Shown here in pieces: positions 1,565 through 10,413 of a stretch of 10,413 bases of DNA. Each line of letters opens with the position of its first letter. Position 1 is the first letter of the stretch. A program made the position numbers and the translations under genes. The notes under the pieces are model-generated. The model was not told the origin of the DNA. It worked only from the letters and a program-made list of their open reading frames with translations, and did no database searches. Origin of the DNA: Planctomycetota bacterium (GTDB lineage: Bacteria > Planctomycetota > GCA-002687715 > DRQF01); contig WFTN01000588.1 of assembly GCA_015485455.1 (NCBI GenBank), forward strand, positions 1 through 10,413. Reading direction: 5' to 3'.

Positions 1565-4500
1565 ATGATTGGTTTACTTCAGATAAGTGATATTCACCTC
1601 AGCCATAATTCAGAGAACCCCATTGTCGACCGAGCAAACCTCATTGCCAGGGCAGTGTGCTCGCGTACCAAGGATTGTGAGACACTAATTGTCATCGTGA
1701 GCGGTGACATTGCAAATACTGGAGCTACGCTGGAATATGAGATTGCCGAAAAGTTCTTAACCGTATTGCGAGAAGCCATTCTTCGGGAATCCCCCAATTT
1801 GGACGGTGTTTATGTGATAACCGTCCCAGGGAACCACGATTGTGACTTTAGTATCGAAGACGACGTGCGCGATATCGTGATTGAGCACGCATCGACAAAG
1901 CGTCTTTCCCCAAAACTCATTGAGACCTGTACTTCAGTCCAAGACAACTACTTTGTATTTCAAGAAATCTGGGATGCAGACAAGGATGATGGCGAATTCT
2001 CAAGAATCCTATCGACCGTCCGCTTCGAACACACACACGGTATAATCGAAATCGTTCGACTCAATACTGCATGGGTTTCAAGAATTGAGGAAAAACAAGG
2101 TACTCTATATTATCCGAGCGAACTGCTGAACAATCTTCCGAAGAGTGATGATGACACTACCAGAATCGCCGTCATGCACCATCCTTTGCATTGGCAGAAT
2201 CAAAACCAAGTTCACGATCTGAGAAAGAAAATCGAAGGTTTATTCGACTTGATCTTGACTGGGCATGAACATTTCTCGGACGCATATCTAAAACAAAACG
2301 AACTGGGCCCCCTAGTAAACTACCTCGAAGGAGGAGAACTCCAATCCACCAGCAAACCAAACTTGTCTTCGTTCAATCTCCTAACAATTAATCCACAACA
2401 GAAGTTGAAGAGGATCACGCGCTTTCAGCTGCGAGGCGAGCTTTATGAGCCAGATCAAGATGAACAATGGACTCAATTCCAACCAGCTGCAGCCTCCCGC
2501 AACGAATTTCTAGGCTGGACGTCAGAATTCAAGGGCGAACTAAACGATCCCGGCGCAGGATACCGTCATCCACGGGAAAGCACCCTCAAATTGGATGACT
2601 TGTTTTTGTATCCAGACTTTCAAGAACAAGAGGCTGAGGGTGATGGGCAGCAGCGGATTGTGAGGGGTGCAAATGTCTTGGCAGAAATACTGAAACGCAA
2701 GCGAATGGTCATCACAGGAGATGCGAATGCCGGAAAGTCTGCGTTGTGCCGTCGAGTTTCTATTGATTTGAGGAAAAAGGGAATATTCCCAATCTTAATA
2801 ACCAAAGAGATCTTGGAATTTGGTCACTCATCGACTCGACTCTCAAACTTCATCGATGATTCGATCAAAGAGCAATACGGCGTTGAAAACGTCGAGTCAT
2901 TTAAGCAACAAGAAACTTCCAGCAAGGCAATAATTGTCGACAACTTCGGAACTAACGGAGTCGACAACCAGGCAATCGAGAATTTCATCGACCATATCAG
3001 CAAGAGATTCGAAATAATCATGTTAGTGGCGCCTGTGTCAATGCAGATTCAAGACTTCTACTCCGACTCGGACCAAATCGCAGTCTTGGTCGGCTTTGCA
3101 TGGCAGACAATTCGAGAATTCGGTCACAAGCAACGTTGGGCTCTAGTCGAACGGTGGGTTGATCTTGGCTCGGATGCAACAGATGATCGGAAGGACCTTC
3201 AAAGGGGAATCGATCGAAAACTGCGCTTGATAGAGTCCGTTCTGCACAGCGGGTTAGTGCCTTCTCGTCCTTTCTACATATTGGTTCTTCTCCAAGAACT
3301 TGAACTGGAATCTACACTTTCCGATCAATCAGCCGGATATGCTCACCTCTACGAAGTCTTGGTTATGGAGGCAGTTCACCAACTCCCTGGTAAGCATTCA
3401 ATTGATATCGCGAACAACTATCTTTCCGAGCTTGCATTCCACTTGCAGAAAGAAAATCGGAGCGGCCTCTCGCGAACGGATATAATTCAGTGGCATCAGG
3501 AATACTCTGCTAAGTTTGATGAACAAATCGATATAGATTCTTGGCTCGACAACTTAGTCGTGGCCGGCGTCTTTCGAACAGTTTTCGGAGAGTATCGATT
3601 CCGGTATCCATACATCTATTACTTCTTCGTTGCGAAACATCTCCGGGATCATCTTAATGAAGAGTCAATCCAAGAAACCATCAAGTCACTCTGCAAGTTG
3701 ATGCATCAGGAATCCACATCGAACCTCATGCTAATGATCTGCCATATGTGTAAGGATGATTTCATTCTCGACTCTCTACTTCGAACAGCGAATGAACTAT
3801 TCAATAGTTCGCCCTTATTCGATGCCAAAACATCAGGACGATTTTTGGAAATTCCATCAGAATCTCCTTTAGAACTTAGCAATAGCGACTTTGAAACACA
3901 AAAGAACAGGCAGAAACGCCTGGAGCAGTTGGACAACCGTGATCAAAGAATGACTGCCAGAGAGGACGCCCGATCTGATGAAGAAAATGAGCGCGATGAT
4001 GAGAAGGATCTAGGCCAAATGAGCCATGCCGCCGCTTCAAGGATAGTGCAGGTCTTGGGTCAAGTCCTAAGGAACTACTCAGGATCTCTCACCGCGAGAC
4101 GAAAACGGGTTGTACTTGAAACGACTTATGGCTTAGGGTTGCGAGCATTAGGTAGCGTCTTTTCAGAGATCAAAGAACACAGATCCACATTCTTGCGATC
4201 CGTTGAACGTGGTCTCAAGGAGAACTGGGAGAAGGATCAAATTGGAATCTCTGAGGCAAAAGAGATTCGGAGCAAGGCTGAGAAGTTCATTTCCTTGCGG
4301 CTTCGCGAATTCGCCTTCTTTGTGGTTAAGCACATTTCGAGATCAATCGGCACCGAACGCGTTGATAAGGCGCTAACTGACGTGGCAAATAGGATGGGAC
4401 TTACCGCTGCAATAATAGACCTTTCTATTAGGCTTGATCATTTTGACGAATTTCCAATGCACCAATTGGAGAAAGTTCGCAAGGAATGTGGAAAACATTG

Positions 4501-4645
4501 GTTCCCAAATTCGATCACGCAGTGGATAGTCGTTGACCACCTCTTCCTAAACAAGGTCGCTTACCATGAAAGACAGAAAGCCTGTTCTATTCTCAAGATC
4601 AAATTGACAGAAAAAAAGGTCATTTCAATTCAAGCAGCACGATGA
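1565..4645 (+). CDS. Metallophosphoesterase-STAND/NACHT-like NTPase, putative defence protein
   Basis: This 1026-residue cytosolic protein joins a calcineurin-like phosphoesterase to a P-loop signalling NTPase. Residues 1-290 hold all phosphoesterase metal motifs: D9-x-H11, G47-D48, G89-N-H-D92, M204-H-H-P207 and G233-H-E-H236, so the enzyme looks intact; the layout resembles CpdA-like phosphodiesterases. After a linker (TLKLDDLFLYPDF), residues 370-500 form the NTPase, with Walker A GDANAGKS (385-392) and a Walker B-like IIVDNF (456-461). A STAND-type winged-helix end follows, with YRFRYPYIYYFFVAKHL at 677-693. A highly charged linker (about 780-820) leads to a helical C-terminal domain with VLGQVLRNYSGSL near 830-845. 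There is no signal peptide or membrane segment. The gene looks more AT-rich than its neighbours and converges on the recombinase operon, as cargo would. In family terms such proteins are STAND/NACHT/Avs-like sensors carrying effector domains; that this one blocks phage, and the substrate it cleaves, are inference. The ribosome binding site is weak. Confidence 0.85.
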   Translation: MIGLLQISDIHLSHNSENPIVDRANLIARAVCSRTKDCETLIVIVSGDIANTGATLEYEIAEKFLTVLREAILRESPNLDGVYVITVPGNHDCDFSIEDDVRDIVIEHASTKRLSPKLIETCTSVQDNYFVFQEIWDADKDDGEFSRILSTVRFEHTHGIIEIVRLNTAWVSRIEEKQGTLYYPSELLNNLPKSDDDTTRIAVMHHPLHWQNQNQVHDLRKKIEGLFDLILTGHEHFSDAYLKQNELGPLVNYLEGGELQSTSKPNLSSFNLLTINPQQKLKRITRFQLRGELYEPDQDEQWTQFQPAAASRNEFLGWTSEFKGELNDPGAGYRHPRESTLKLDDLFLYPDFQEQEAEGDGQQRIVRGANVLAEILKRKRMVITGDANAGKSALCRRVSIDLRKKGIFPILITKEILEFGHSSTRLSNFIDDSIKEQYGVENVESFKQQETSSKAIIVDNFGTNGVDNQAIENFIDHISKRFEIIMLVAPVSMQIQDFYSDSDQIAVLVGFAWQTIREFGHKQRWALVERWVDLGSDATDDRKDLQRGIDRKLRLIESVLHSGLVPSRPFYILVLLQELELESTLSDQSAGYAHLYEVLVMEAVHQLPGKHSIDIANNYLSELAFHLQKENRSGLSRTDIIQWHQEYSAKFDEQIDIDSWLDNLVVAGVFRTVFGEYRFRYPYIYYFFVAKHLRDHLNEESIQETIKSLCKLMHQESTSNLMLMICHMCKDDFILDSLLRTANELFNSSPLFDAKTSGRFLEIPSESPLELSNSDFETQKNRQKRLEQLDNRDQRMTAREDARSDEENERDDEKDLGQMSHAAASRIVQVLGQVLRNYSGSLTARRKRVVLETTYGLGLRALGSVFSEIKEHRSTFLRSVERGLKENWEKDQIGISEAKEIRSKAEKFISLRLREFAFFVVKHISRSIGTERVDKALTDVANRMGLTAAIIDLSIRLDHFDEFPMHQLEKVRKECGKHWFPNSITQWIVVDHLFLNKVAYHERQKACSILKIKLTEKKVISIQAAR

Positions 4646-4668: not shown

Positions 4669-4983
4669 TCAAGCCAGGCAGTCAACCTTGGCGCCTGCAA
4701 TGAATCGGATTTGATCCGGTACCCGCAATCCAGAAAGCACATCGTCTTTGCGTGAAACAGCCATTAGCATCAAATCCATCACCTGCGTCATCCGCGCCCT
4801 TGTGATCCCCAATCGCCTGGCAGCATCCGCATAGCTCTCAAGCGTTCCATCCTCAATGCACCGCTCAACGTAGTAGGCCAGCGCCAACCTCATCTCCAAC
4901 TTACTTGGCACGTCGCACACCACGTTGGCCTGTGTCGGTTTCTTCTTGGCTTCCTTGAACCGGTAGCTAACTCGTTCGCTCAT
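4669..4983 (-). CDS. ParB-like helix-turn-helix protein linked to the recombinase
   Basis: This 104-residue protein has a helix-turn-helix around residues 50-72 (ADAARRLGITRARMTQVMDL), matching the ParB/KorB-type pattern of a G-[IV]-[ST]-R-A-R turn followed by TQ. Similar short HTH ORFs are commonly found directly after serine recombinases in Alphaproteobacteria and related elements. The N-terminus is basic (RFKEAKKK). Its ATG (4983-4981) overlaps the recombinase stop as ATGA, and AGGAG lies seven bases upstream, so it is translationally coupled to the recombinase. A plausible role is recombination directionality or operon regulation; the sequence does not decide between them. It is the last gene of the operon, and only 23 bp separate its stop from the end of the convergent STAND gene. 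Confidence 0.82.
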   Translation of the reverse strand: MSERVSYRFKEAKKKPTQANVVCDVPSKLEMRLALAYYVERCIEDGTLESYADAARRLGITRARMTQVMDLMLMAVSRKDDVLSGLRVPDQIRFIAGAKVDCLA

Positions 4984-6509
4984 GCCATTCTCCTTTTCGT
5001 CAAGGCGCTCAAGCCAGCAGGATGGTAACTGATGGCAATATCTCCAGTCTCGGGCTCAAACCGGATCTCCTCCACAAGAAGGCTCAAGATCCTCTGCTTT
5101 TCTTTCGGAAGCAGTTCATGCCAGATCTCGTCGAACTCCCCAAGAGCCTTTGCCACCTCATCCTCGCTCACAGTGCCATTCTTAAGCGCTTCCAGTTCAC
5201 CATCGATTTCCTCGACTCGCGTCTCAACCCCAAAGATCTCCTGATCAATCTCAAGCAGCCTATCTGTTATGGCACCGGTTGCGCGTCTGTCTTTCGCCAA
5301 AGCAACAAACAAACCCTTGCGCTCCTTCTGGAGTTTTTTGAGCTGGCTCGCAACCGTTCTCTTCTCAGCCAGAAGCGTTGGCTTCTTCTTTCTTGCTTCC
5401 GCAAGGGCAGCCTTCACCGTTGCGGCTACGACGTTTTCGTCCTTGCCAATGGCTCGAATCTTGTCAATGACAAAAGTCTCGACCTCGTGGGCATTGAGCC
5501 GTGCCCCCGGGCATTGAAAGTCGGTTGGCAATTTGGATGCGCGGCAAACATAATAGTGGTAAAGCGCGTCCTTTTTTCTGGTGTAAGTGTGGCCCATGGG
5601 CAGGCCGCAGCCTCCGCAAACCAAGAGCCCCCTCAACAACAGGTTCCACTTGTTCTTGGCTCTTGAGCCTCCAGCGTGGCCATTGCCTCGCAAAAGTTCC
5701 TGGACGTCGTCGAATAACTCTTGGCTTACGATAGCTTTGTGAAGGCCGTTGAAAACTTCCTCATGATGGCGAACCTTGCCAATGTAGATGACTTGCTTCA
5801 GGTGGACCGATAGCGAGGAGGTTTTCCACTTTCCGCCACGCTTTGTACGCCAGCCTCTTCGATCGAGTTCTGCAACGGTTTTCGCCAAGGAACCATGTTG
5901 AAGATAAAGCTCAAAGATCTCTCGGACCCGCTTGGCCTCGTCCTTGACAATCTCCAGCTTTCCATCTTTGCCGACATAACCAAGAGGGGCATGGCCGCCG
6001 GGCCAGATGCCTCGTTTCCTTGAGGCGTGGATCTTGTCACGGGTTCGCTCTGAGATGACGTCCCGCTCAAACTCAGCGAAGCTCATTAGAATATTGAGGG
6101 TCAGTTTGCCCATGGAGTTGGCGGTGGAAAACTGCTGGGTGACCGAGGCAAACTCAACCCCGTGTTGGTCAAAAATATCCATGACTTTGGCGAAGTCCCT
6201 GATGGATCGGGAAAGCCTGTCGACCTTGTAAACAACGACACAGTCAATGAGGCCAAGTTCAATGTCTTGAAGGAGTCTTTGGAATCCCGGGCGGTCAATA
6301 TCCTTGCCCGAAAAGCCGCCATCTGAATAGACACCGGGTATCGCTTCCCATCCATCAAAGGCTCGACTCTTGATGTAAGCCTCAATGGATTCCTGCTGCG
6401 CTTCAAGAGATCCGAAGTTGGAGTCAGTGGAGCGGTCTACCGATTGTCGGACGTATATGGCCACACGCTTTTTCTTGGTGCCTCGTCTTTGGCCAGCGAG
6501 AGCGTTCAT
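4980..6509 (-). CDS. Large serine recombinase (site-specific integrase)
   Basis: This 509-residue enzyme catalyses DNA integration, excision or inversion through a Ser-DNA intermediate. Residues 15-165 are the resolvase/invertase catalytic domain: Y19-x-R21-x-S23 supplies the catalytic Ser23 and Arg21, YSDGGFSGKDIDRPG (61-75) is the usual conserved block, VDRLSR (96-101) carries further active-site arginines, and FAEFERDVISERTRD (144-158) starts the dimer-interface helix. A recombinase DNA-binding domain follows (about 175-290), then a zinc ribbon with Cys298, Cys301, Cys322 and Cys333. The coiled-coil segment at about 370-445 is typical of large serine integrases. All key residues are present and the length is normal, so it should be active. 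AGGAG sits eight bases before the ATG. The start overlaps the stop of the 56-aa gene (ATGA) and the stop overlaps the HTH gene start (ATGA). It is the likely mobiliser of the element. Confidence 0.97.
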   Translation of the reverse strand: MNALAGQRRGTKKKRVAIYVRQSVDRSTDSNFGSLEAQQESIEAYIKSRAFDGWEAIPGVYSDGGFSGKDIDRPGFQRLLQDIELGLIDCVVVYKVDRLSRSIRDFAKVMDIFDQHGVEFASVTQQFSTANSMGKLTLNILMSFAEFERDVISERTRDKIHASRKRGIWPGGHAPLGYVGKDGKLEIVKDEAKRVREIFELYLQHGSLAKTVAELDRRGWRTKRGGKWKTSSLSVHLKQVIYIGKVRHHEEVFNGLHKAIVSQELFDDVQELLRGNGHAGGSRAKNKWNLLLRGLLVCGGCGLPMGHTYTRKKDALYHYYVCRASKLPTDFQCPGARLNAHEVETFVIDKIRAIGKDENVVAATVKAALAEARKKKPTLLAEKRTVASQLKKLQKERKGLFVALAKDRRATGAITDRLLEIDQEIFGVETRVEEIDGELEALKNGTVSEDEVAKALGEFDEIWHELLPKEKQRILSLLVEEIRFEPETGDIAISYHPAGLSALTKRRMA

Positions 6510-6676
6510 TGTTCTTTCTCCTGCTTGGTTGGGGCAGGGGACGTGTTGGCCTCCAAGGCCGAAGCTATGCGCTCAGTGGCAAGCCGTAGTTTCTTCAACT
6601 CCCGAAAAAACTCTGGCACCTGCTTCTCTAAGAGGATCCTGCCAGCCACCGTCTTCTCGAATGGTATGTCTCTCAT
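6506..6676 (-). CDS. Small helical protein between DUF2924 and recombinase genes, 56 aa
   Basis: The ATG at 6676-6674 overlaps the stop of the DUF2924 gene (ATGA) and follows an AAAGG ribosome site at seven bases. The stop overlaps the start of the recombinase (ATGA). A longer in-frame version would start inside the DUF2924 gene, and I reject it because the coupled start is so well placed. The 56-residue product is charged and largely helical (FFRELKKLRLATERIASALEA, about 23-43), consistent with a short coiled coil, and has a polar Lys/Glu/Gln tail. I recognise no family. The position suggests a partner of the recombinase or of the DUF2924 protein, which is inference from synteny. Confidence 0.75.
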   Translation of the reverse strand: MRDIPFEKTVAGRILLEKQVPEFFRELKKLRLATERIASALEANTSPAPTKQEKEQ

Positions 6677-7170
6677 TGTTTCGCCTTTCCAGCCTTGAGC
6701 CCGAAGAAGGCTCGTCCGTTGCAATGCTGACCTGTGGCTGCCTTAGCGACGGCGCTTAGGCTGCGGAAGGTTTCGCCTTTGAATTCAAATCCCTTGGTTA
6801 GGACTCTTACCGCGATCAGCTTGCCCTTGTACTCCCGCGTGAGGCTAATGCCGGGGGTAATCTCAGGTGCCTTGGGCTTCTTGGACTCGCTGCCCGTGAT
6901 CGGTTGTGATAAGTCAATGCCAAGTTGGCTGATGAGTTCTTCAAGTCTCGCCTTGGCAACCATGGAAAGGCCGCCAGTGCGAATCTCCTCTAACTTCCAA
7001 GCGATGCGTTTCCAGAGATAGGCTCGATGTTTGACTCTTGGCTTCTTGCCAAAGACTCGTTGGTACTCGTCAAGTAGATCGGACATAGAGAGATCTCTGA
7101 GTTTGTTGATCTCCGCGACCCTTGCGGGAGTGTCCGATATCGTAGGGAATCCGACGTCTTTTCTGGCCAT
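6673..7170 (-). CDS. DUF2924 family protein
   Basis: This 165-residue protein has the two-part pattern I associate with DUF2924. The N-terminal helical region carries LRDLSMSDLLDEYQRVFGKK (25-44) and RAYLWKRIAWKLEE (49-62). The C-terminal core carries PGISLTREYKGK (106-117), then GFEFKGETFRSLSAVAKAATG (127-147) and NGRAFFGL (151-158). Family members are recurrently found beside serine recombinases in mobile elements, as here; the biochemical role is not established. The ATG at 7170 is preceded by GGAG six bases upstream. It follows the 48-aa gene by 17 bp and overlaps the 56-aa gene by four bases. The ending KAGKAKQ is basic. An accessory role in recombination or DNA binding is a guess from neighbourhood. 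Confidence 0.9.
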   Translation of the reverse strand: MARKDVGFPTISDTPARVAEINKLRDLSMSDLLDEYQRVFGKKPRVKHRAYLWKRIAWKLEEIRTGGLSMVAKARLEELISQLGIDLSQPITGSESKKPKAPEITPGISLTREYKGKLIAVRVLTKGFEFKGETFRSLSAVAKAATGQHCNGRAFFGLKAGKAKQ

Positions 7171-7782: not shown

Positions 7783-7872
7783 GAATGACACTCGGAACGT
7801 CATTCTCGGCATTACTACTTTTGAGTTTTTGAATTGGGAACTAACCCCGAAATGACAGTTCTGAATGTCATT
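7783..7872. promoter_or_regulatory. Paired AATGAC/GTCATT dyads between primase and operon
   Basis: GAATGAC (7783-7789) and GTCATTC (7799-7805) form a 7-bp dyad. AATGACA (7851-7857) and TGTCATT (7866-7872) form a second of almost the same size, about 67 bp away. The interior is AT-rich. The right-hand dyad overlaps the primase stop codon, and the left-hand one lies about 25 bp before the zinc-ribbon start. Two similar dyads in the only sizeable gap of this strand suggest a shared regulator site controlling the downstream operon. An origin or processing site is an alternative. Confidence 0.55.
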
Positions 7873-10057
7873 CCCGAAGCGCCAGCCCTTTGATACCTCG
7901 ACCGGCAGTGTTGCGACTTCTTTCGTAGCCTCGTTTCGTCAGTCGCGAAGTCAAAACACGGTCCGTAAGTGGTGTGTCGACCTGATTCTTCTTAGCCCAT
8001 TTGCGATAACAGCCCGTCAACTCTTTGTTGAAGAGGATGCTCTCGGACTGGACAAGGCAATCAGCGATGAAATCGGAAAGTTCGTCTTCTTCGGCGCGGT
8101 AGTTGTCGGTGGCAAAAATGACAGATTCGGGAGGCGTAAGACCCTCATCTTGAAAACGTTGACAGCCTTCAAGGAGCCAATTGAGGATTCCCGGCGCTTC
8201 TTGAATTAGTTTCTTGCCAAGATTGTGATCTTGTTCTGCCGCAGGAATGACTTGTTCGAATGGAATTAGGCGGAGTCGCCGCCAGATGCCATGATCGGTC
8301 CCGGTTATTCGTGGCTTGTGATTGGTGCTGATGAACAACTTGTGTGTCGGTGAGAATTTCCAGAAATCTTCCCGCATTCGTCGGGCGGAGATGGTGTCGT
8401 TTCCAGTCAGAGATTTGACGAGATTCTCATTGAGTTGGCCGTCCTCTGGTGTTTCCGAACAGAAGACAACTCTCTTTCGATGAAGGGTGACCAACTCCGT
8501 AGGATGTCGGTCGCCTGTTGACTTTAAGAGGAGTGATGACGGCGCGGTTTGGCCGTAGTCACCTAATACGGCGAGAATAGTCTCGACGAGCGTTGACTTG
8601 CCATTTGCGCCACAACCAACAAAAAGGTGGATTACGTGATCTCTTATATCCCCTGTGATGGCATAGCCGAGAGCTTTTTGGAGGTAGTCTCGAATCGTCG
8701 CATCCGGTAGAATTCTCTCCAAGAAACTCAGCCAGTTGGGGCACGTAACTTGGCTGTCAAAGGACACGGGGGCAAGTTGCGTAATGAGATCCTCTCGTCG
8801 ATGCGGGCGGAGGCAGTTGTTCTTCAAGCACAAGGTGCCGGTATTCGTGTTTAGCAGCATCGGATCTTTGTCGAGGTGTTCTGGCAGAATGGGAACCCCG
8901 GGTTCGGAGCGTGCCAGTTTCATGAGATTCTCAAGACTGGCGAGTTTTTCACAGCTTCTTGCCCACTTGTAGATCTCCTCTCGGATTGTTTGCTCCTTTT
9001 CCTGACTCGCCTCTTTTGCAATGAGTCGCACAGTCCGTTTGGATAGTTGTTGGACTTTTCCAGTATCATCGGTAGTCCATTGTCCGCCATCAAAATGGAG
9101 CCACTTGCTCCATGGGAAGCAGTAATGCAGGTCAATGCCAAAGTTGTCCAAGAGGCGTTCCGCGTTGCCCATGTCCGTTCGTGGTCTCGAAGAGGTTTTC
9201 TTGCTGCCATCAGTGGCAACTTGCCGTGGCTCTTTGATTCCAGAATCGAGCCCGGAATTAATGGTGCGGGCTGCTTCTTGTTCTGTGAAATCCTCTGAGA
9301 AGTGAGCTGACGCGGCCGTCAGAAGCCGCACTTCCACCTCCTCTCGTGAAAGGAGTCCAGCTCCGACGATTGTGCCGAGTTTGAACGCAGCGGTGTTCAG
9401 GGTTTCATTCCGCTGTCCTTGGACGGCAAAAGATACTGCCTGGCATTCGTTCGCTAACGCTGCTTTGTAGTATTTTGGGTTGGTGGTGCAGGAAGGGTGG
9501 ACAGCGTGATTGCCTTCCTTTTTTTGTGTAAGCAGACGTTGAGCGATTTCGAGAGGAAGCTCTGCTATCTTCAATTCACTTGGTGCGTGGCCCTCAAGCC
9601 AGCGATAGCGCCCACCTGTTTCTGGGTGTAACGATCCTACCGAGACGATCTGCCCGTTCTCACCTCGAACGTCAATCCCGGTGCCAAGGCGACCCGCGGA
9701 ATTGCGAATCTCCATGTTTGGAGGGATAAGGAAATAGGCGTGCTTACCTTTTGCGGTGCCGCCGCTGACAGCTGTTACTGTCTGTGGGAGATCGAAAAGT
9801 GAGAGGTCACCTCCGTTTTGGGGGTCCTCGTCGATGACAACAATGCCAGAAGGCGAACCTGTCCGAATTCCAATGTTCCCGCTTTTGGCCCAGCGGGTTA
9901 CAGTTTCGCGATCAGGTATTGAAGCATTGTGCCAGTTCTTTTGTGTTGGCGTCTTGCCATTAAGTGGGGTGGGAATCCAGCCTCGGGCTAAGGCTGCGAG
10001 TGCCTCCTTGACCCTTACAGGTTGATTTGCATCGGACGCGACGTTCTTGATGTTCAT
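7868..10057 (-). CDS. Prim-pol / SF3 helicase replication protein (P4/D5-type)
   Basis: This 729-residue protein combines primase-polymerase and helicase for element replication. The N-terminal prim-pol domain (about 15-175) shows GWIPTPLNGKTP (26-37), the acidic pair in VVIDEDP (73-79), SGGTAKGKHAYFLIP (98-112) and GIDVRGENGQIVSVGSLHP (127-145). A helical region follows, then a D5-type N-terminal part (about 310-470). The SF3 helicase has Walker A GCGANGKST (481-489), Walker B VVFCSE (530-535) and motif C LFISTNHKP (574-582). A C-terminal winged-helix segment ends the protein (about 650-729). All catalytic motifs are present. The ATG at 10057 is chosen because GGAG lies eight bases upstream; a GTG 33 bp further up is in frame but poorer. 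A dyad-covered promoter-like site lies about 70 bp upstream. This is the replication core of a plasmid-, satellite- or phage-like element. Confidence 0.94.
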   Translation of the reverse strand: MNIKNVASDANQPVRVKEALAALARGWIPTPLNGKTPTQKNWHNASIPDRETVTRWAKSGNIGIRTGSPSGIVVIDEDPQNGGDLSLFDLPQTVTAVSGGTAKGKHAYFLIPPNMEIRNSAGRLGTGIDVRGENGQIVSVGSLHPETGGRYRWLEGHAPSELKIAELPLEIAQRLLTQKKEGNHAVHPSCTTNPKYYKAALANECQAVSFAVQGQRNETLNTAAFKLGTIVGAGLLSREEVEVRLLTAASAHFSEDFTEQEAARTINSGLDSGIKEPRQVATDGSKKTSSRPRTDMGNAERLLDNFGIDLHYCFPWSKWLHFDGGQWTTDDTGKVQQLSKRTVRLIAKEASQEKEQTIREEIYKWARSCEKLASLENLMKLARSEPGVPILPEHLDKDPMLLNTNTGTLCLKNNCLRPHRREDLITQLAPVSFDSQVTCPNWLSFLERILPDATIRDYLQKALGYAITGDIRDHVIHLFVGCGANGKSTLVETILAVLGDYGQTAPSSLLLKSTGDRHPTELVTLHRKRVVFCSETPEDGQLNENLVKSLTGNDTISARRMREDFWKFSPTHKLFISTNHKPRITGTDHGIWRRLRLIPFEQVIPAAEQDHNLGKKLIQEAPGILNWLLEGCQRFQDEGLTPPESVIFATDNYRAEEDELSDFIADCLVQSESILFNKELTGCYRKWAKKNQVDTPLTDRVLTSRLTKRGYERSRNTAGRGIKGLALRE

Positions 10058-10127
10058 TTGAACTTCTCCAAGGAACTCTACTGTGAGCACACCAGCAAAT
10101 AGGTGCGCCGCCGTAGTGGGGAAGTTC

Positions 10128-10182: not shown

Positions 10183-10413
10183 CTACTTGTGATTTTGATT
10201 TTTTTTGGGAGCAGTTCGCGAACTACTTTTTCGAGCCCTATGCTCCATGGCTACTTTGTCCCCGGACCAGTGAATCCAACTTTTCCGCCACTGCGCCGCT
10301 GCCTTTCCTTTGAGTCTTCGGAGTGCCGCCTGAAATTTCTCACGGAGGTCCACATCATCGAGGCCCGTGTAGATCTTTCCGACCTTGGCGTGGGTGGTAA
10401 CGCGCCGCCGCTG
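10183..10413 (-). CDS. C-terminal end of an unidentified basic protein (partial)
   Basis: A minus-strand frame is open from the window edge for 76 codons to TAG 10185-10183; its start lies outside the window. Codon use is GC-rich at third positions in the proximal part, as expected for a real gene. The visible part is basic, with KVGKIYTGLDDVDLREKF (11-28), a Lys/Arg-rich helix (LRRLKGKAAAQWRKSW, 31-46) and a Lys/Arg/Ser tail that suggests nucleic-acid binding. I recognise no family. It precedes the primase-helicase on the same strand, with the repeat-rich control region between them, so it may be another replication or regulatory gene of the element. Confidence 0.58.
   Translation of the reverse strand, partial: QRRRVTTHAKVGKIYTGLDDVDLREKFQAALRRLKGKAAAQWRKSWIHWSGDKVAMEHRARKSSSRTAPKKNQNHK
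10213..10224. repeat. 12-bp perfect palindrome AGTTCGCGAACT
   Basis: This palindrome repeats the AGTTCG half-site that also occurs at 10123-10128 and, inverted, at 10145-10150. It lies inside the last codons of the partial gene at the right edge. It is likely a second binding site for the same factor that would cover the primase promoter. Confidence 0.5.

Follow-up and report, generated by a model that had tools for sequence, protein, structure and literature searches.

Gene organization and family membership

The stretch analysed here (the window) comprises the 10,413 nucleotides of contig WFTN01000588.1 from a Planctomycetota bacterium (assembly GCA_015485455.1). Frame analysis revealed a single intact open frame of 1026 amino acids at positions 1565-4645 of the forward strand, the product of which we identify from its sequence as a divergent member of the DS-8 family of anti-phage proteins. 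The protein begins with a calcineurin-like phosphoesterase (residues 1 to about 300; 1565-2464, +), the probable effector, delimited by Pfam Metallophos at residues 4-236, by ligand conservation and by structural matches over residues 1-312. A NACHT/STAND ATPase with a winged helix follows (residues about 345-690), preceded by a junction motif, HPRESTLKLDDLFLYPDF, at about residues 333-352 (2561-2620, +), which was located in an alignment of phosphoesterase and TIR forms and in an 81-row alignment of homologues. The ATPase contains the Walker A sequence GDANAGKS (residues 385-392; 2717-2740, +), with K391 present, and the Walker B aspartate D459 in IIVD (2939-2941, +); its winged-helix part (residues 635-689; 3467-3631, +) matches Pfam nSTAND_NTPase4 (E 3.3e-12), which like Metallophos was over its cut-off. 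The helical C-terminal region (about residues 700-1026; 3662-4642, +), defined by model secondary structure and common to TIR-headed relatives, is a probable sensor. A sequence-only reading of this DNA had proposed a metallophosphoesterase fused to a P-loop NTPase, and this architecture was confirmed by Pfam, by all eight metal-ligand positions and by both Walker motifs. A genome search found one copy of the gene in its own genome, a 4.13-Mb draft of 614 contigs with 77.3% completeness.

The NCBI equivalog model NF053861 (DS8_antiphage) matched the protein with 865.6 bits against a cut-off of 790, aligning residues 6-1012 with positions 1-994 of the 994-position profile. The PADLOC candidate system PDC-S60 was also matched, with 263 bits for PDLC05050 over residues 319-1021 and 100 bits for PDLC05051 in the N-terminal half. 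DS-8 was named by DefensePredictor (DeWeirdt, Mahoney and Laub, Science 2026, PMC13092281); the accessible part of that paper describes it in E. coli as a one-protein system combining a metallophosphatase with a NACHT domain, with validated anti-phage activity that is lost when either domain is mutated. A NACHT-type P-loop NTPase is likewise present in the same protein as the metallophosphatase in the window. From its name and architecture we infer that NF053861 represents the DS-8 of that paper, as also supported by a companion DS9_1 model for DS-9. Because the equivalog score is over the cut-off along the full length, and because the validated family needs both domains, the defence role put forward in the sequence-only reading is well founded on sequence grounds. 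The metallophosphatase-NACHT fusion is already known as a published, named family, and the notion of an undescribed fusion was ruled out by the existence of the NCBI model and of the DS-8 paper.

The aligned relatives share 20-28% identity with the window protein. NF053861 matched all 45 scanned members at E up to 1e-3, and in a search of 99 genomes, including its own, the window copy was the only one above cut-off. A full-length relative (L003, genome G056; profile positions 1-993) scored 729.8 bits, below 790, so that true siblings probably go unrecognized by the equivalog model.

The phosphoesterase and its active site

The metal-ligand positions D9, H11, D48, N90, H91, H205, H234 and H236 were identical in 79 of 81 near-full-length homologues, the remaining two (L055 and L057) being without the N-terminus, and W210 and N167 were invariant in all 81. 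The genome scan that collected the relatives used patterns spanning residues around 44-51 and 88-95, so that part of the conservation in those columns stems from how the relatives were selected; neither pattern includes positions 9, 11, 205, 234 or 236. The alignment omits 15 frames from 11 loci: the broken or partial L015, L048, L059, L086, L092, L096 and L104, the TIR proteins L016-L018 and the short L019. In addition to these, it omits L003, the protein of which is identical to that of L071. In L015, L048, L059, L086, L092 and L104 the gene is split over two frames or its N-terminal part is out of frame, and these copies are decayed or misassembled.

In a structure search with matches over residues 1-312, and well tested for residues 1-307, the nearest folds among the matches listed were YydB, Rv0805, purple acid phosphatase, Lmo2642, GpdQ and SMPDL3A/B. 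The nearest by sequence profile were Lmo2642 and GpdQ. Small-molecule phosphodiesterases therefore appear closer than Mre11/SbcD nucleases in both predicted fold and profile, though not decisively. The analogue proposed for the DS-8 phosphoesterase, in the part of the original paper available, is SMPDL3A, an enzyme that cleaves cyclic GMP-AMP (PMC13092281).

Exchange of the probable N-terminal effector

A tblastn search of plasmid records gave nine matching records. In five of these (three from V. parahaemolyticus, one from Streptococcus and one from Lactococcus) the match begins only at residues 311-341 of the window protein and the gene is annotated as encoding a TIR protein. Of the other four records, two hold phosphoesterase forms, of which one is spread over two frames, and two match in the phosphoesterase only. 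Both TIR_2 and nSTAND_NTPase4 were over the Pfam cut-off in all three plasmid TIR proteins scanned. The TIR-STAND sibling on a plasmid of V. parahaemolyticus (L016, 4929-8142) is encoded 3' of a small unnamed gene and adjoins a recombinase-family gene. A comparable protein occurs within the phylum of the window: in genome G286 (L109), an 863-amino-acid frame combines a PDC-S60-type body with an N-terminal stretch of 157 residues that is recognized by the Thoeris TIR model ThsB. Two viral contigs (L135 and L136) carry relatives of the TIR form, with 53% and 27% identity in alignments that start at residue 1 or 7 and extend into the end region. Phosphoesterase and TIR were the two effector types encountered on this module.

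Alignment of the phosphoesterase and TIR forms revealed a common junction motif (consensus LxLxDxYVYPDL), P-loop, winged helix and C-terminus, placing the point of effector exchange upstream of the junction motif. PADLOC assigns both forms alike to PDC-S60. On a quick tree, a less trustworthy kind of tree on which counts of changes do not distinguish gain from loss, the four TIR rows correspond to two changes, both forced by starred branches. That one kind of STAND and C-terminal module can be headed by either a TIR domain or the phosphoesterase suggests that the phosphoesterase occupies the effector slot, and is thus the putative weapon of the protein, in agreement with the role that had first been assigned to it from the letters of the DNA. 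The accessible text of Kaur et al. 2021 (PMC8195603) includes calcineurin-like phosphoesterases and TIR domains among the exchangeable N-terminal effectors of STAND-linked systems, and the principle of effector swapping is therefore already in print; our search of the open-access literature gave no paper that applies it to DS-8.

The STAND body and variation at Walker A

The earlier proposal of a STAND-like module was borne out by the predicted fold, which is NLR-like and of STAND/NACHT type rather than an alternative fold. In a fold search the predicted body aligned with Avs4 and EfAvs5 and with the animal NLRs NLRC4, NOD2 and NLRP3. A PADLOC search at E up to 1 returned only PDC-S60 and one effector model; the Avs models within PADLOC were not checked.

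The Walker A lysine varies within the family, with K in 64 of 81 homologues, A in seven, R in six and C in four. The homologues without the lysine are L034, L036, L037, L043, L046, L053, L062, L063, L065, L070, L073, L076, L077, L078, L080, L091 and L094, and its loss amounts to four changes on the quick tree. Walker B D459 was retained in 80 of 81 homologues despite these losses, the remaining one having E.

Distribution of relatives

Relatives were collected by scanning genome contigs with a three-sequence alignment, from which the best 80 of 126 were used; both scan patterns sit in the phosphoesterase, and the scan consequently collected no TIR-headed forms. Alignment scans of viral contigs identified five phosphoesterase forms and the two relatives of the TIR form described above; no relative was detected in viral contigs when a single sequence served as query. 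A tblastn search of 50,697 phage records with the window and the L045 module as queries (E up to 1e-5) was likewise negative, as was a blastn search of E. coli genomes with the window and the L045 gene as nucleotide queries.

The quick tree, built on the shared module, held 85 rows, 73 of them labelled by phylum from record titles, many of which denote metagenome bins, and covered 13 phyla. The labels required 17 changes against a minimum of 12, and this ratio, together with the number of phyla, indicates a broad family that mostly clusters by phylum. The window row forms a long branch, with its nearest neighbours by path in Chloroflexota, Verrucomicrobiota, Gammaproteobacteria and Planctomycetota. 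Within the phylum of the window the module was detected at E up to 1e-10 in six of 392 genomes, its own included; among these six, G286 carries the TIR form, and the window's own genome and G056 carry phosphoesterase forms.

Genomic context

The genes around DS-8 homologues were surveyed in a set of 151, from which seven (fragments of disrupted DS-8 genes and a single exceptionally long frame) were removed. Among the remaining 144 immediate neighbours no cluster exceeded three genes, consistent with the single-gene make-up, free of a fixed partner, of the DS-8 system. Several neighbours are plain metabolic genes, and since the homologues have no neighbours in common, membership in a conserved housekeeping operon, which had been named as an outcome that would count against a defence role, was ruled out. 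Phage integrase was the commonest Pfam family listed (6 of 144), and type I restriction and MADS models each accounted for 3-4 of the 144 among the matches listed, for which we claim no enrichment. At most 25 families were listed in each of the neighbour surveys, of 324 and 137.

In the window itself, the DS-8 gene is convergent with a small HTH-like gene (4669-4983, -; Pfam HTH_37, below cut-off), with a gap of 23 bases. A large serine recombinase (4980-6509, -) follows, with Pfam Resolvase, Recombinase and zinc ribbon domains all over cut-off, and then a DUF2924 gene (6673-7170, -; Pfam E 3.1e-38). A SpoVG-like gene (Pfam, below cut-off) is also encoded on the minus strand, as is a Prim-Pol/D5-type primase (7868-10090, -) with Pfam Prim-Pol, D5_N and DUF5906 over cut-off and a TIGR01613 match of 278 bits, likewise over cut-off. 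Ten stretches around related recombinases (L137-L146) were compared, drawn from ten of the 12 matching genomes of the same phylum besides the window's own. DUF2924 adjoined the recombinase in all ten and an HTH relative did so in nine, and a SpoVG-like gene was present in four; neither the primase nor a DS-8 relative was found in any of the ten. The DUF2924-recombinase-HTH integration module (4669-7170) is thus real and recurrent, and the DS-8 gene does not belong to its constant components.

The GC content, in windows of 800 bases, was 0.443-0.475 within the DS-8 gene and 0.484-0.540 wholly outside it. This lower GC and the short convergent gap fit a recent acquisition of the gene. The borders of an element were not found: there was no transfer RNA gene, no evident pair of attachment sites among the repeats and no clean empty site, and the contig ends at position 10413. 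Rfam and transfer RNA scans of the window were empty, and an empty-site search with positions 1-1560 returned only short dispersed repeats. These repeats (1-149, 147-285, 369-460 and 1242-1309) have copies 76-93% identical on other contigs of the same genome and in the sister genome G001. A 147-amino-acid frame at 774-1217, 5' of the DS-8 gene, had no Pfam match over cut-off. The DS-8 gene is therefore a candidate for the proposed role as cargo of the recombinase element: the module beside it recurs in related genomes, no attachment sites or ends of an element were located, and the ten related stretches are without a DS-8 relative. Among the 44 genes 3' of the related recombinases (HTH included), PADLOC matches listed included PDC-S11, PDC-M30, PDC-M41, QatC, RmrA and capP/capH. 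These names would fit a cargo region, and no enrichment is claimed for them.

Proposed mechanism and alternatives

Taken as a whole, our results are best explained by a DS-8 family protein that works on its own as an anti-phage sensor, a reading to which we assign a probability of about 0.65. An infection cue would be detected by the C-terminal helical region, upon which the NACHT ATPase may switch state and the protein oligomerise, by analogy with its NLR and Avs relatives. The switched NACHT body would then activate the two-metal phosphoesterase at the N-terminus, which is predicted to stop the infection by hydrolysing a phosphodiester, with a nucleotide-type small molecule as a likelier substrate than DNA.

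Several observations weigh against this interpretation. The Walker A lysine is absent in 17 of 81 relatives, a poor fit to one simple ATP-driven switch. The link between the window protein and E. coli DS-8 consists of a model match and a common architecture, and its activity is predicted; similarly, the basis for the proposed substrate chemistry is fold resemblance alone. Moreover, a PADLOC effector model named 'Endonuclease' matches the window protein (E 3.6e-16), and the SbcD model was matched by five of 45 family members.

These last two matches would be consistent with an Mre11/SbcD-like nuclease that breaks down the nucleic acid of the phage or the host after NACHT triggering. We consider this unlikely, given the nearer resemblance to small-molecule phosphodiesterases. 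The SbcD family model gave no match to the window protein at E up to 1, by which a plain SbcD identity was ruled out. Still less probable is that the phosphoesterase, as its likeness to SMPDL3A might imply, is not a killing effector but removes a cyclic nucleotide signal and in this way adjusts a different immune or stress pathway; the same slot is filled by TIR domains, and no signalling gene is conserved beside the homologues (top cluster 3 of 144, in a search limited to adjoining genes). Non-defence processes can also be regulated by STAND proteins, and the tight convergent placement beside the recombinase module might suggest a gene that serves this element, in its maintenance or in the exclusion of rival elements, but we regard this as very improbable in view of the match to the equivalog model of a defence family with validated activity, the spread of relatives over many phyla without a constant neighbour, and the ten stretches around related recombinases with no DS-8 relative.

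The anti-phage sensor reading can be extended, tentatively and at a little under even odds, to the family at large: DS-8 and its TIR siblings may form one exchangeable sensor platform, in which the shared C-terminus reads one infection cue, the response to it consists of either TIR or phosphodiesterase chemistry, the phosphoesterase is a nucleotide-destroying equivalent of TIR in its role, and part of the family operates without the canonical Walker A lysine. The TIR swap makes the phosphoesterase worth viewing as an effector on the infected cell, beyond an eraser of cyclic messengers. A cue found for the TIR version, with loss of nicotinamide adenine dinucleotide (NAD+) as readout, may also hold for DS-8 and would provide a route to its trigger. 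Our analysis adds to the published family a shared sensor body with a swapped effector, a constraint map, and branches without the Walker A lysine; a member far outside E. coli, together with 80 relatives, reveals the constrained residues of DS-8.

Comparison with known systems

The window protein resembles DS-8 in having an N-terminal metallophosphatase and NACHT in one protein and in its full-length model match above a curated cut-off. Unlike the validated E. coli DS-8, it comes from another phylum, and the likeness was drawn through the NCBI model and architecture. With PADLOC PDC-S60 it shares both the STAND and C-terminal module (PDLC05050) and the N-terminal half (PDLC05051). PDC-S60 differs from DS-8 in being a candidate-system label, for which we found no paper in the open-access literature, and in that PDLC05050 also takes in TIR-headed proteins. 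DS-9A (NF053862, DS9_1_antiphage) has a homologous phosphoesterase, matched by the window protein at E 1.1e-9 and by 44 of 45 family members, but the window protein reaches only 37.7 bits against a cut-off of 420. DS-9 is, in the accessible part of its description, a two-gene system with a HAD phosphatase (PMC13092281).

The systems of Kaur et al. 2021, as far as the available text describes them, carry bDLD3/FGS and TRADD-N domains and are not DS-8 (PMC8195603). Avs4 and EfAvs5, like the animal NLRs NLRC4, NOD2 and NLRP3, align with the predicted STAND body of the window protein; they differ in their effector and C-terminus, with 9-15% identity in the aligned parts. The TIR-STAND siblings of V. 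parahaemolyticus (L016), Streptococcus (L017), Lactococcus (L018) and G286 (L109) have the junction motif, P-loop, winged helix and C-terminus as in DS-8, and differ in bearing a TIR domain where DS-8 has its phosphoesterase.
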